Part shown: positions 8,685-12,530 of the stretch, piece after piece
Position numbering within the stretch: position 1 is the first letter of the stretch
How the letters are laid out: the number at the start of each line of letters is the position of its first letter
Assembly (NCBI GenBank): GCA_018065145.1
Contig: JAGHTW010000054.1
Location: forward strand, 1-64,000
Direction: 5' to 3'
DNA length: 64,000 bases
Source: Candidatus Prevotella equi
GTDB lineage: Bacteria > Bacteroidota > Bacteroidia > Bacteroidales > Bacteroidaceae
Made by a program: the position numbers and the translations under genes
The notes under the pieces: generated by a model
What the model was told of the DNA's origin: nothing
The model's database searches: none
What the model saw: the letters and a program-made list of their open reading frames with translations, nothing else

Positions 8685-10541
8685 ATGGAAAAAATGAAAA
8701 AATTTGCATACAAGGAGAAACTGACATCTACCAAACTCAACAAAATGGTCGACGCAGTAAATGCGAAGCCAGATGTCGTGTTTCTCAACGAGTATGAGGC
8801 AGGAGGTAAGGTATTGCCGACACTGAAAGCGAAATTCCTGTATTTTGACGAGGAAATGGGCGACGGTGAGACTTATATGACACACGGTCGTACTATCTAC
8901 GATATTCACAACGAAATCGCAGAAACACCAAAGTATTACCATGTCTTCTGTTGCGCCCACGACAAGGAGCAGAGTGGTGACGGTAATGGCTACATCTACA
9001 TCGTCTACGACGACACGCTTAACTACGTCCGTACATACCGTATTGAGCAAGGTATTGGGGAAATTCCTATGGTAATCCTCAGAGCGTTCGGAGAAGATAA
9101 CGCTTTCTCCGACCTCTCCAACCTTTCGGCAGAAGGAGAGGAGAAGATAAAGGACTTGATTGGTGATATTGCTTTCAAAGAGGAGCGTATCGAAATATCT
9201 CTTTCTACTGATTTCGGCGTAATAAATTGGTTGGGCAAGAATGTTAAAATAACAGTAGGTTCAACGGAGAAAATTCGTCCACTTGATGCACATGGTCATT
9301 TAGTGCTATGGGTAAGATTTGGCGAGACTTATACAATCACGTTCCCAGAGGTTGAAGGATATAATGCTGTTGACCCTGTTTCGTACACAGCCGAAGAATA
9401 CGTCAGAGTTGTTGCTGCTCACTACAGAAAGCATTACGACGACCTGCGTGATGTAGCACGTTCCTTTGTGGTAGAAGCAAGTCCTAACCCAGAGATTGAG
9501 GTTACAGGCAGTGAGGAGGTGATTGACCGCATACTCTCGCATGGTGCATACGTCATTGACGAGACGAACAAGAAGTACGCTCGCTTGTCAGAGACTGACA
9601 GCAACACCTTTGAGGATGGAACACCTTGGAATGGCATCTACGGCAACGCTTTCCGCTATCTGCCACAGATATACGTTCTTCGTGACAAGGACTACACCGA
9701 TGGTGGCACGAAGTATTGGGTTAGCGATAAGCCGATAGGCGATGTAGAGCCACTGCCAGAGTCATGGATTGGCATGTATAAGGGCAGTTACATGGATAAC
9801 GTGCTGCGCTCTATCCCTAACGTAATGACGCAAGAGACTCAAACGATGTCGCAATTCTGGAATGCAGCGCAGCGTTTAGGTGCTGACTATGGTCTTGTAA
9901 ACTATTTCGACCATCAGAAGCTCAACGCTCTGCATCTTGCGAAGTTCGGTAATATGAATAGCGATGTTACTGTAGGTGAAGGCTTGTGCAACGCTGGTCA
10001 AGGATATTGGAATCACCGAACAGGCACAACGGCAGCACTTGGCAACGGAACAGGCACTGCGCCATATCTCAACACATCATTCCGAATGGTTAGGCTCTTC
10101 GGCATTGAAGACCTATTCGGCACAACGTGGGAGTTCAGACCAAACATTCGCTTCGATGGTGGCAACGCCATTGTCTATGATGGCAACGTCGTAAGCAATT
10201 CAGCACAGGGCAAGCGTATCTTTGGAAGATTGCAGACTGCGAGTCAACAGTACATAATGAATATGGCTCTTGGTGACGATTTCGACTTGGTGGCTGTTAA
10301 TGCAAATGGTGCAAGTGCAAGTACATACTGGTGTGACGGAACATGGGCTGCAAGTACAGGACAGATCCTTCGCGTTGGCGGTGACTCGATTCGCGGTTCG
10401 ATTTGCGGTCTCTCGTGCTCGGAATCGGATGGCGTGTTCTCGCTCTCGTCTGCGTCTGTCGGTGCTCGCTTGGCTTTCAAAGGCGATATAAACGACTACG
10501 AACTCGTAAGCGGTGCAGAATTGGCGGCACTTCATTCATAA
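8685..10541 (+). CDS. DGR target protein: tail fibre / receptor-binding protein with C-type-lectin (FGE-sulfatase-like) fold
   Basis: 618 aa. The N-terminal 300 residues look like a virion-attached shaft and beta domain. From about residue 370 the sequence has features of the formylglycine-generating-enzyme type C-lectin fold used by DGR target proteins (SFRMVRLFGIEDLFG, WEFRPNIRFDGGNAIVYDG). The variable repeat covers about residues 561-599, close to the C-terminus, with invariant core strands (GGxSxxGSICGLSC and GARL.F) between variable positions. Followed by TR and RT, this is a complete cis arrangement. The role in host attachment is inferred from other phage DGRs such as BPP-1. Confidence 0.9.
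   Translation: MEKMKKFAYKEKLTSTKLNKMVDAVNAKPDVVFLNEYEAGGKVLPTLKAKFLYFDEEMGDGETYMTHGRTIYDIHNEIAETPKYYHVFCCAHDKEQSGDGNGYIYIVYDDTLNYVRTYRIEQGIGEIPMVILRAFGEDNAFSDLSNLSAEGEEKIKDLIGDIAFKEERIEISLSTDFGVINWLGKNVKITVGSTEKIRPLDAHGHLVLWVRFGETYTITFPEVEGYNAVDPVSYTAEEYVRVVAAHYRKHYDDLRDVARSFVVEASPNPEIEVTGSEEVIDRILSHGAYVIDETNKKYARLSETDSNTFEDGTPWNGIYGNAFRYLPQIYVLRDKDYTDGGTKYWVSDKPIGDVEPLPESWIGMYKGSYMDNVLRSIPNVMTQETQTMSQFWNAAQRLGADYGLVNYFDHQKLNALHLAKFGNMNSDVTVGEGLCNAGQGYWNHRTGTTAALGNGTGTAPYLNTSFRMVRLFGIEDLFGTTWEFRPNIRFDGGNAIVYDGNVVSNSAQGKRIFGRLQTASQQYIMNMALGDDFDLVAVNANGASASTYWCDGTWAASTGQILRVGGDSIRGSICGLSCSESDGVFSLSSASVGARLAFKGDINDYELVSGAELAALHS
10366..10480 (+). repeat. DGR variable repeat (VR)
   Basis: 115 bp aligned without gaps to the template repeat at 10601-10715 (constant offset 235). 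I count 18 differences: 15 fall at template adenines (22 adenines in TR) and 3 at other template bases. The adenine bias is the signature of DGR mutagenic retrohoming. It is in frame at the 3' end of the target gene. Confidence 0.95.
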
Positions 10542-10600
10542 GGTGTTTAATTATGCAAAATAATAATCATATCATTTAATAATAGGCAGAAGAGTGTAGC

Positions 10601-10715
10601 TCCTTCACGTTGGCGGTAACTCGAATAACGGTTCGATTTGCGGTCTCTCGTGCACGTACTCGAATACCGTGTTCTCGCACTCGTATGCGAATATCGGTGC
10701 TCGCTTAACTTTCAA
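10601..10715 (+). repeat. DGR template repeat (TR)
   Basis: Noncoding template between the target gene and the reverse transcriptase. Its adenines are concentrated at AAY-like and single positions that fall in the first two codon bases of VR, and a stretch of 22 bases in the middle is identical in both copies. The flanks 10542-10600 and 10716-10866 show no gene and are expected to be part of the TR RNA. Confidence 0.95.
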
Positions 10716-10866: not shown

Positions 10867-12204
10867 ATGCGTGGAAAGAACAGAAAGATAACACTCGCAC
10901 AGGTATATGACATCAACAATGTCAGAGCTGCTGATTTAGAAGCGAGGAAAGGCAAGGCACAGAACTATGGTGTAAGGAAATTCGACAGGAACAAGGAAAG
11001 TAATCTGATTGCTATTTCCGAAGCCATAAAGAACGGTACTTTCAAGACAATGCAACCAGTCTTTGAAGAGCGATACTGCGACAAGAAGGTACGTGTGCTT
11101 TCAAAAGTACATTATCCTTATCATGTGGCACATCATGCGTTAATGCGCGTTATAATGCCAGTTCTTGAAAAAGGCTATTACTACGAGAGTGCTGCAAGCA
11201 TTAAAGCCAGAGGTATTCATTACAGTGTAAAACATGTGCGTAAATGGATAGATTTGCATAGGTCACAGGCTTTATGGTGGGCGCAGGTTGACTTTAAGAA
11301 GTTCTATCATCACATCAACCGCCAGAAACTCTACGACCGCCTTTGTAAGACGTTCAACGATGAAGGTATAAGGTGGATGCTCCATGATATAATATGGGCG
11401 TTAGGAGAACACAATGGTATAGAACCGTCCGATGGGACTGAGGGCGTTGGTATAGGACTGTACCCTATACAACCTCTTGTTAATTTCTATACAGGAGATA
11501 TGGTGCGAGACGTTAACAGTATCAAAGGAATAAGACTGTTTGTGTATTGCGACAATAATCTTATATTGGGTACTTCTCCTGATTCTGTATGGGAAGCAGT
11601 AAACAGGATAAGATTTTGGGCAGACAATATACTGCGTCAACCTATTCACGATAATATAGGAGTCCAGAGGCTTGATGAAGTCCATCCAGTAGATTACTGC
11701 GGTTATCTATTCTTTCGTGAGCATACGCTTATAAGAAAATCCACGAAATACAAATTCAAGAAGAGATACAAAAAGACTATTAATGACGAAGTTAAGCATA
11801 GACAGGTGTTGGCATCGTATAAAGGTTGGCTTGAACACTGCAATGGTTTAACTCTTTGGCAGAAAGTTACTGGTATGAAACGATTTAGCGAATTAGGAAT
11901 ACAGCGTGGCACTATGCTACGTGACGGAAAGAAATTCTTTGACGTACCTTCGGTATCTGCGTCATTTCTTGTTGACAGAGATATAATAGTGAAAGACTTC
12001 GCTGAAAATTGCGACACTGGAAATGGTAAAGGACGAATGTATGTATTGGTGGAAGAGAACGGAAAAGAAATGAAGTTCTGTACTAACAATCCACGCTTAA
12101 AAGATACACTAAAACAAGTACAAGAACTTGGAGAATTACCTTTCAAGGCGACATTTCACGTTCGTAATACGCAAGGTGGAAGACCAGATTATTATTTTGA
12201 ATAA
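10867..12204 (+). CDS. DGR reverse transcriptase with non-canonical YCDN active site
   Basis: 445 aa. Copies the TR RNA into adenine-mutagenised cDNA that replaces VR. The RT palm is recognisable: IKARGIHYS...V..W (about 112-128), motif A WAQVDFKKFYHHI with D142, a GIGLYPIQ segment (about 195-202) where DGR RTs usually carry a GxxxSQ-like motif, and the catalytic loop FVYCDNNLILG with D229 and Asn230. Canonical RTs have a second Asp at 230. A single G-to-A change would account for GAT to AAT at 11554. The domain beyond about 300 is a thumb-like basic region plus an extra C-terminal extension. No Avd gene is obvious nearby. Confidence 0.9.
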   Translation: MRGKNRKITLAQVYDINNVRAADLEARKGKAQNYGVRKFDRNKESNLIAISEAIKNGTFKTMQPVFEERYCDKKVRVLSKVHYPYHVAHHALMRVIMPVLEKGYYYESAASIKARGIHYSVKHVRKWIDLHRSQALWWAQVDFKKFYHHINRQKLYDRLCKTFNDEGIRWMLHDIIWALGEHNGIEPSDGTEGVGIGLYPIQPLVNFYTGDMVRDVNSIKGIRLFVYCDNNLILGTSPDSVWEAVNRIRFWADNILRQPIHDNIGVQRLDEVHPVDYCGYLFFREHTLIRKSTKYKFKKRYKKTINDEVKHRQVLASYKGWLEHCNGLTLWQKVTGMKRFSELGIQRGTMLRDGKKFFDVPSVSASFLVDRDIIVKDFAENCDTGNGKGRMYVLVEENGKEMKFCTNNPRLKDTLKQVQELGELPFKATFHVRNTQGGRPDYYFE

Positions 12205-12206
12205 TT

Positions 12207-12530
12207 ATGACAGGAACATCAACGAAACCAGTTCCATTCGTTCAGAACGAAGGGCTGACAACAACAATCTCATTTAACGAGAATATTATTACAGAAAAAG
12301 ACGGTCAGAAGACTTACGAGTATGAGACGGTCATAGTGAACAACCCTTTAACCTATGGTGGCATTGTGTCTACTATTGTACGTGACAAGTACAGTGGGGA
12401 CGATGTAGAGGCAATCATCCTCAATGGCACTGACACCGCAGAGCATAAGGCAGAGTACGAGGCACTACAGAAGTGGCGCAAGACAGCGAAAGAGATAGCG
12501 CATAAGATATTAGAGAACGAAGCAGAGTAA
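12207..12530 (+). CDS. Hypothetical protein (107 aa)
   Basis: Two bases after the RT stop. Beta-rich N-terminal half and helical acidic C-terminal half (EYEALQKWRKTAKEIAHKIL). I recall similar small proteins beside tail genes in Bacteroidales phages. It is not visibly an Avd-type four-helix bundle. Probable tail accessory; function unproven. Confidence 0.6.
   Translation: MTGTSTKPVPFVQNEGLTTTISFNENIITEKDGQKTYEYETVIVNNPLTYGGIVSTIVRDKYSGDDVEAIILNGTDTAEHKAEYEALQKWRKTAKEIAHKILENEAE

Follow-up and report, generated by a model that had tools for sequence, protein, structure and literature searches.

A DGR reverse transcriptase with Asp-Asn in motif C from a tailed phage of Prevotella

The DGR cassette and its phage context

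The stretch of DNA analyzed here (referred to below as the window) comprises the first 64,000 nucleotides of JAGHTW010000054.1, a 70.7-kb contig from the assembly of Candidatus Prevotella equi. It carries a DGR cassette, all elements of which lie on the forward strand. The target gene of the cassette (8685–10541) encodes a 618-aa phage tail protein, which matches phrog_5302 (tail protein, 2.2e-36) and is about 29% identical to LoVEphage tail proteins over positions 254–615. The part of this gene that encodes the C-terminus contains the VR (115 nt, 10366–10480), which forms a repeat pair with the TR (115 nt, 10601–10715). The TR is followed by the gene of the DGR reverse transcriptase (RT), an intact open reading frame of 445 aa (10867–12204).

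A preliminary description of this DNA stated that the VR differs from the TR at most adenines. This is borne out: 15 of the 22 TR adenines are changed in the VR, as are 3 of the 93 non-adenine sites. In the whole host assembly, one TR and one VR of this cassette were found, and no related copy of either elsewhere. Among the neighboring ORFs tested for Avd, no bAvd-like match was found. A 21-nt inverted repeat (95%), with arms at 10548–10568 and 12187–12207, brackets the TR and the RT gene; of 25 simulated sequences, one contained an equally good repeat. On visual inspection it is absent from L046, the nearest relative found, which is described below.

The surrounding ORFs encode primase/helicase, terminase, portal, and tape measure proteins, and thus point to a tailed phage or a prophage. 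The cassette of the window makes up a complete DGR in a tailed phage of Prevotella: the RT is an RVT_1 protein closest to DGR RTs, the TR/VR pair is adenine-biased, and the VR lies inside the target ORF. We therefore treat it as a variant DGR on the basis of its TR/VR pair, the fold of its RT, and its phylogeny, despite the YCDN motif discussed below.

Two further observations concern the phage and its host. One gene of the phage (60454–61425; phrog_424, 1.4e-46) is phosphoadenosine phosphosulfate reductase-like. The host assembly holds two other DGR-type RTs: a hankyphage-like one with YCDD and its own TR/VR on C218 (L002), and one with GNLTSQ and YVDD, accompanied by a bAvd-like gene, on C79 (L003).

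The reverse transcriptase and its active-site motifs

The RT of the window matches RVT_1 of Pfam (2.5e-07) and PHROG 1423, reverse transcriptase (3.5e-57). Its AlphaFold model has a mean pLDDT of 92.9, and the best fold match of this model in the PDB is the active-state BPP-1 DGR RT 8UB7 (TM 0.85 by target). The C-terminal extension of the RT, residues ~337–445 (11875–12201), is not present in the 328-aa Bordetella RT. It matches phrog_19665 (1.4e-15), a family with function unassigned, is modeled mostly as a confident alpha/beta region, and is common to hankyphage RTs. This long extension may stand in for Avd.

In a DGR RT, motif C is expected to read YxDD. In the window, codons TAT TGC GAC AAT AAT at 11545–11559 encode Y227, C228, D229, N230, and N231, i.e., the first Asp of the motif is kept (Asp229), and the second catalytic Asp is replaced by Asn230 (AAT, 11554–11556). 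In the alignment with 41 other RTs, N230 stands in the column of the second Asp of YxDD, and a phmmer alignment places "ycdn" of the window over "ymdd" of the Bordetella DGR RT 8UB7. The reading of the active site as YCDN, made in the preliminary description, is thereby confirmed from the codons and from the alignment column. The next residue, N231, is atypical as well: an Asn where a hydrophobic residue is expected, found in the window RT alone. The first catalytic Asp of motif A, D142 (11290–11292), is kept and is invariant in a 57-row alignment. In the AlphaFold model, strands 222–227 and 230–235 form an intact motif-C hairpin. Across 155 DGR RTs, both Asp residues of motif C are 100% conserved (PMC3521204).

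Motif 4 is unusual too. Instead of (I/V/L)GxxxSQ the window RT has GVGIGLYPIQP (11443–11475), in which IGLYPIQ keeps the IG and the Q and loses the S. The counterparts of GLYPIQ are GFYPVQ in L046 and GRYPIQ in L047, a further relative, and the motif occurs, exact or slightly altered, throughout the clade, in all the YCDD members too. It is thus a clade-typical substitute, and GLYPIQ as a mark of decay is ruled out. The preliminary description had read this segment correctly; the idea of a second defect is not supported, since all the YCDD relatives in the clade have the same motif or a close variant. According to DiGReF, the last two residues of the GxxxSQ motif vary in 15 of 155 DGR RTs (PMC3521204).

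Relatives of the RT and the rarity of YCDN

The first searches yielded only relatives at 39–45% identity; their motif 4 is of the same kind, and they all have YCDD. Profile searches added L046, L047, and a group at 45–48% identity. L046 is the nearest relative found. It comes from an IMG/VR contig of a different metagenome; its RT is 56% identical to the RT of the window and also reads YCDN, and the stretch encoding this motif is the same 12 nt in both, TATTGCGACAAT. L047, whose RT is 52% identical to that of the window, is the third member of the clade and reads FCDD. Relatives beyond these three have xDD. Directly before motif 4 (11407–11439) there is an insertion of about 11 residues, EHNGIEPSDGT, present only in the window, L046, and L047; among the sequences compared, this insertion is the mark of the three-member clade.

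In a census of the loci fetched up to that stage, motif C read YCDD in 104 entries, YMDD in 16, YADD in 10, YVDD in six, FCDD in two, and YCDN in four. The four YCDN entries correspond to two distinct genes, and one FFDE match counted in the window is not an RT motif. Besides the two distinct YCDN genes, the census contains no loss of a motif-C Asp. When IMG/VR was scanned for the exact pattern P[IV]QP...YCDN, the L046 contig was the sole match. Among canonical GNLTSQ DGR RTs of IMG/VR, a pattern of low recall gave no exact match with YxDN, while the equivalent, similarly low-recall pattern with YxDD gave at least 120 matches. No close copy of the window RT was found in single-protein scans of viral contigs and genome contigs, and no further members of the clade were found among 393 genomes of the order or among 398 genomes of the genus.

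The preliminary description proposed a comparison of homologues: YxDD in most of them would indicate a mutated copy, and YxDN in many of them a new variant of RT. Most homologues do have YxDD; YxDN is present not in many but in two distinct genes, both in the one three-member clade. At the level of sequence, the Asp-to-Asn change is real, rare, and limited to this clade.

A separate observation concerns LoVEphage. Its RT (L004, OY725593.1, 2860–4403) is split over three reading frames, the middle one of which carries YCDD, and in six LoVEphage-type records the RT match falls into the same two pieces. The split is due either to two frameshifts that became fixed in the lineage or to recoding.

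Constraint and phylogeny

Across 41 other RTs, 24 columns of the alignment are invariant. The window RT and L046 each depart from them only at D230N and I87V. The latter substitution is also present in L047, which departs at four of the 24 columns with its DD intact. Apart from I87V, no stops, frameshifts, or other lost conserved residues were seen in the YCDN RTs. Between the window and L046, pN/pS is 0.35, with saturation at synonymous sites; this value lies inside the range of the other pairs (0.21–0.46). The branches of the window and L046 are shorter than that of L047.

The best tree joins the window with L047 (FCDD), with weak support (85/80). Trees that place the two YCDN RTs as sisters are not rejected (p-AU 0.19 and 0.31), and at site 230 a two-state model shows no preference for either topology. 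The Asn may have arisen twice, or once with one reversion.

Copying from TR to VR in the two YCDN lineages

Like the 15 of 22 TR adenines mutated in the window, the 16 of 31 mutated in L046 are a normal fraction among cassettes. At 15 sites the TRs of the window and L046 differ and neither has A; both VRs match their own TR at 13 of these sites, and at none does a VR match the TR of the other lineage. In a comparison of eight TRs, six of the eight TR states unique to the lineage of the window are found in the window VR. The VRs track their own TRs, and so TR-to-VR transfer occurred in each lineage after the split. If the Asn is older than the split between the window and L046, then the Asn enzyme did the copying. 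The trees do not fix the order of these two events, and from the sequences we infer that the copying may have been performed by the Asn enzyme.

By one scoring scheme, the window has three non-A mismatches between TR and VR, which is the highest number among about 50 cassettes; most have none, and L046 has one. At two of the three sites the TRs of all seven relatives keep A, so the window TR was altered after the last writing of the VR. This pattern fits slow or recently stopped activity and is compatible both with a weak enzyme and with a dead one. The last rewriting of the window VR may be old.

The window TR also lacks four adenines that are kept in the TRs of all seven relatives (lost by transversion in each case, to T, C, C, and T). 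These losses look as if adenine mutagenesis struck the template itself.

Interpretation of the Asp-Asn motif

To our knowledge, the Asp pair of motif C is generally treated as indispensable in RTs. The preliminary description left three options for the window: a recent inactivating mutation, a sequence error, or an RT that tolerates Asn. The last of these is the best supported by the sequences, as YCDN is shared with L046, the other conserved residues are kept, and the VRs track their TRs. We consider it probable that the window RT represents a small lineage of DGR RTs working with Asp-Asn, probably more slowly or with changed metal use. On balance, and with less confidence, we would go further and regard it as a natural RT lineage whose motif C is Asp-Asn and which nevertheless performs mutagenic retrohoming, possibly with a metal preference, rate, or error spectrum of its own, i.e., as an RT counterpart of the GDN RNA polymerases. 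We rank a functional Asp-Asn RT first, followed by inactivation, action in trans, and error.

In a functional cassette, the RT would copy TR RNA with adenine-specific errors, and the resulting cDNA would replace the VR in the tail-protein gene. Asp142 of motif A and Asp229 of motif C would supply the essential carboxylates, and Asn230 would act as a neutral ligand at the second position of motif C. The cost of Asn230 would probably be a reduced rate or altered use of Mg/Mn, by analogy with the GDN and ADN sites of mononegavirus and birnavirus polymerases; for the Asn enzyme, both catalytic competence and metal preference are inferred here.

Mutation of the first motif-C Asp abolishes polymerase activity; an enzyme mutated at the second is usually not dead but less active or different in its use of metals, and Asn occurs naturally in place of the second Asp in birnaviruses and Mononegavirales (PMC4634563). 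The inactive D185N/D186N form of HIV-1 RT (PMC5498913) speaks against a functional Asp-Asn RT, although it is a double mutant and not a single change of the second Asp; the dead control in DGR work, SMAA (PMC12875486), is not a single second-Asp-to-Asn change either. The small number of distinct YCDN enzymes found (two) and the failure to find a close copy of the window RT also weigh against a functional enzyme. On balance, we favor a functional Asp-Asn RT.

The strongest competing explanation, which we regard as unlikely, is that a recent Asp-to-Asn change, independent in the lineages of the window and L046 (or single and late), abolished the activity, so that the adenine changes in the VR would date from a time when the enzyme was active and had YCDD. 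The complete conservation of both Asp residues in the DGR RTs surveyed previously speaks for inactivation, as do the top rank of the window in non-A mismatches, the two sites where the TR changed after the VR was last written, and the trees, by which a parallel origin of the Asn is not rejected. Against a coincidental loss in both lineages stands an indirect argument: the identical residue is changed in two of the three clade members, and no other distinct RT in the census has lost a motif-C Asp. Random loss would bring stops, frameshifts, and further lost residues, none of which is seen, and L046 has just one non-A mismatch. A recent inactivation of the window copy alone, as the preliminary description had it, is made improbable by the change shared with L046; parallel loss in both lineages keeps some probability.

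Still less probable is action in trans, in which a non-catalytic YCDN RT would be kept as an RNA-binding or structural partner, and a YxDD DGR RT of another element in the same cell would copy the TR. The host assembly does hold two candidates, the RTs of C218 and C79. However, they are only 24–28% identical to the window RT, a TR or VR related to those of the window was not found elsewhere in the assembly, and a phage cannot count on a host with another DGR. Moreover, conservation in the YCDN RTs covers the catalytic core, beyond the RNA-binding parts. As for a sequencing or assembly error at 11554, a single wrong base would suffice, and the host genome is a draft of 243 contigs, but the same codon in an independent contig with a protein only 56% identical (L046), together with a codon after N230 that is non-canonical in the window too, effectively excludes it.

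If the preferred reading is right and the DGR works with Asp-Asn, it would reveal the role of the second Asp in RTs. The window RT would then also offer a naturally occurring enzyme with which to ask if metal coordination plays a part in adenine-specific infidelity. The case is a warning for annotation pipelines in which RTs without xDD are discarded.

Comparison with known systems

The best PDB match of the window RT, both by sequence (E 1.1e-19) and by fold, is bRT of Bordetella phage BPP-1 (8UB7 and related entries). In both systems the TR adjoins the RT gene, the VR lies in a tail-protein gene, and the differences are adenine-specific. The motifs differ: YMDD in bRT corresponds to YCDN in the window RT, and SQ in motif 4 to PIQP. 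The window RT also has about 110 more C-terminal residues, and no Avd-like gene was recognized in the adjacent ORFs tested.

The RTs of hankyphage (Bacteroides phage p00), LoVEphage, and crAss-like phages belong to similar cassettes of Bacteroidales phages and are about 25–33% identical to the window RT. In the hankyphage RT the long C-terminal part is present as well (91% coverage), but the RTs of this group that were read (L005, L004) have YCDD. Closer still are the DGR RTs of Prevotella phages with the PIQP motif (L006/L074, L026/L078, L027/L077, L079, L110–L114, L133, and others), which form one clade with the window RT. At 37–48% identity, their motif 4 reads GL[YF]PIQP or nearly so and their cassette order is that of the window, but all of them have YCDD.

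The GDN/ADN enzymes of Mononegavirales and Birnaviridae are RNA polymerases of RNA viruses, unrelated to the window RT below the level of the palm fold, and the analogy with them is one of mechanism only: like the window RT, they are palm polymerases in which motif C is naturally Asp-Asn.
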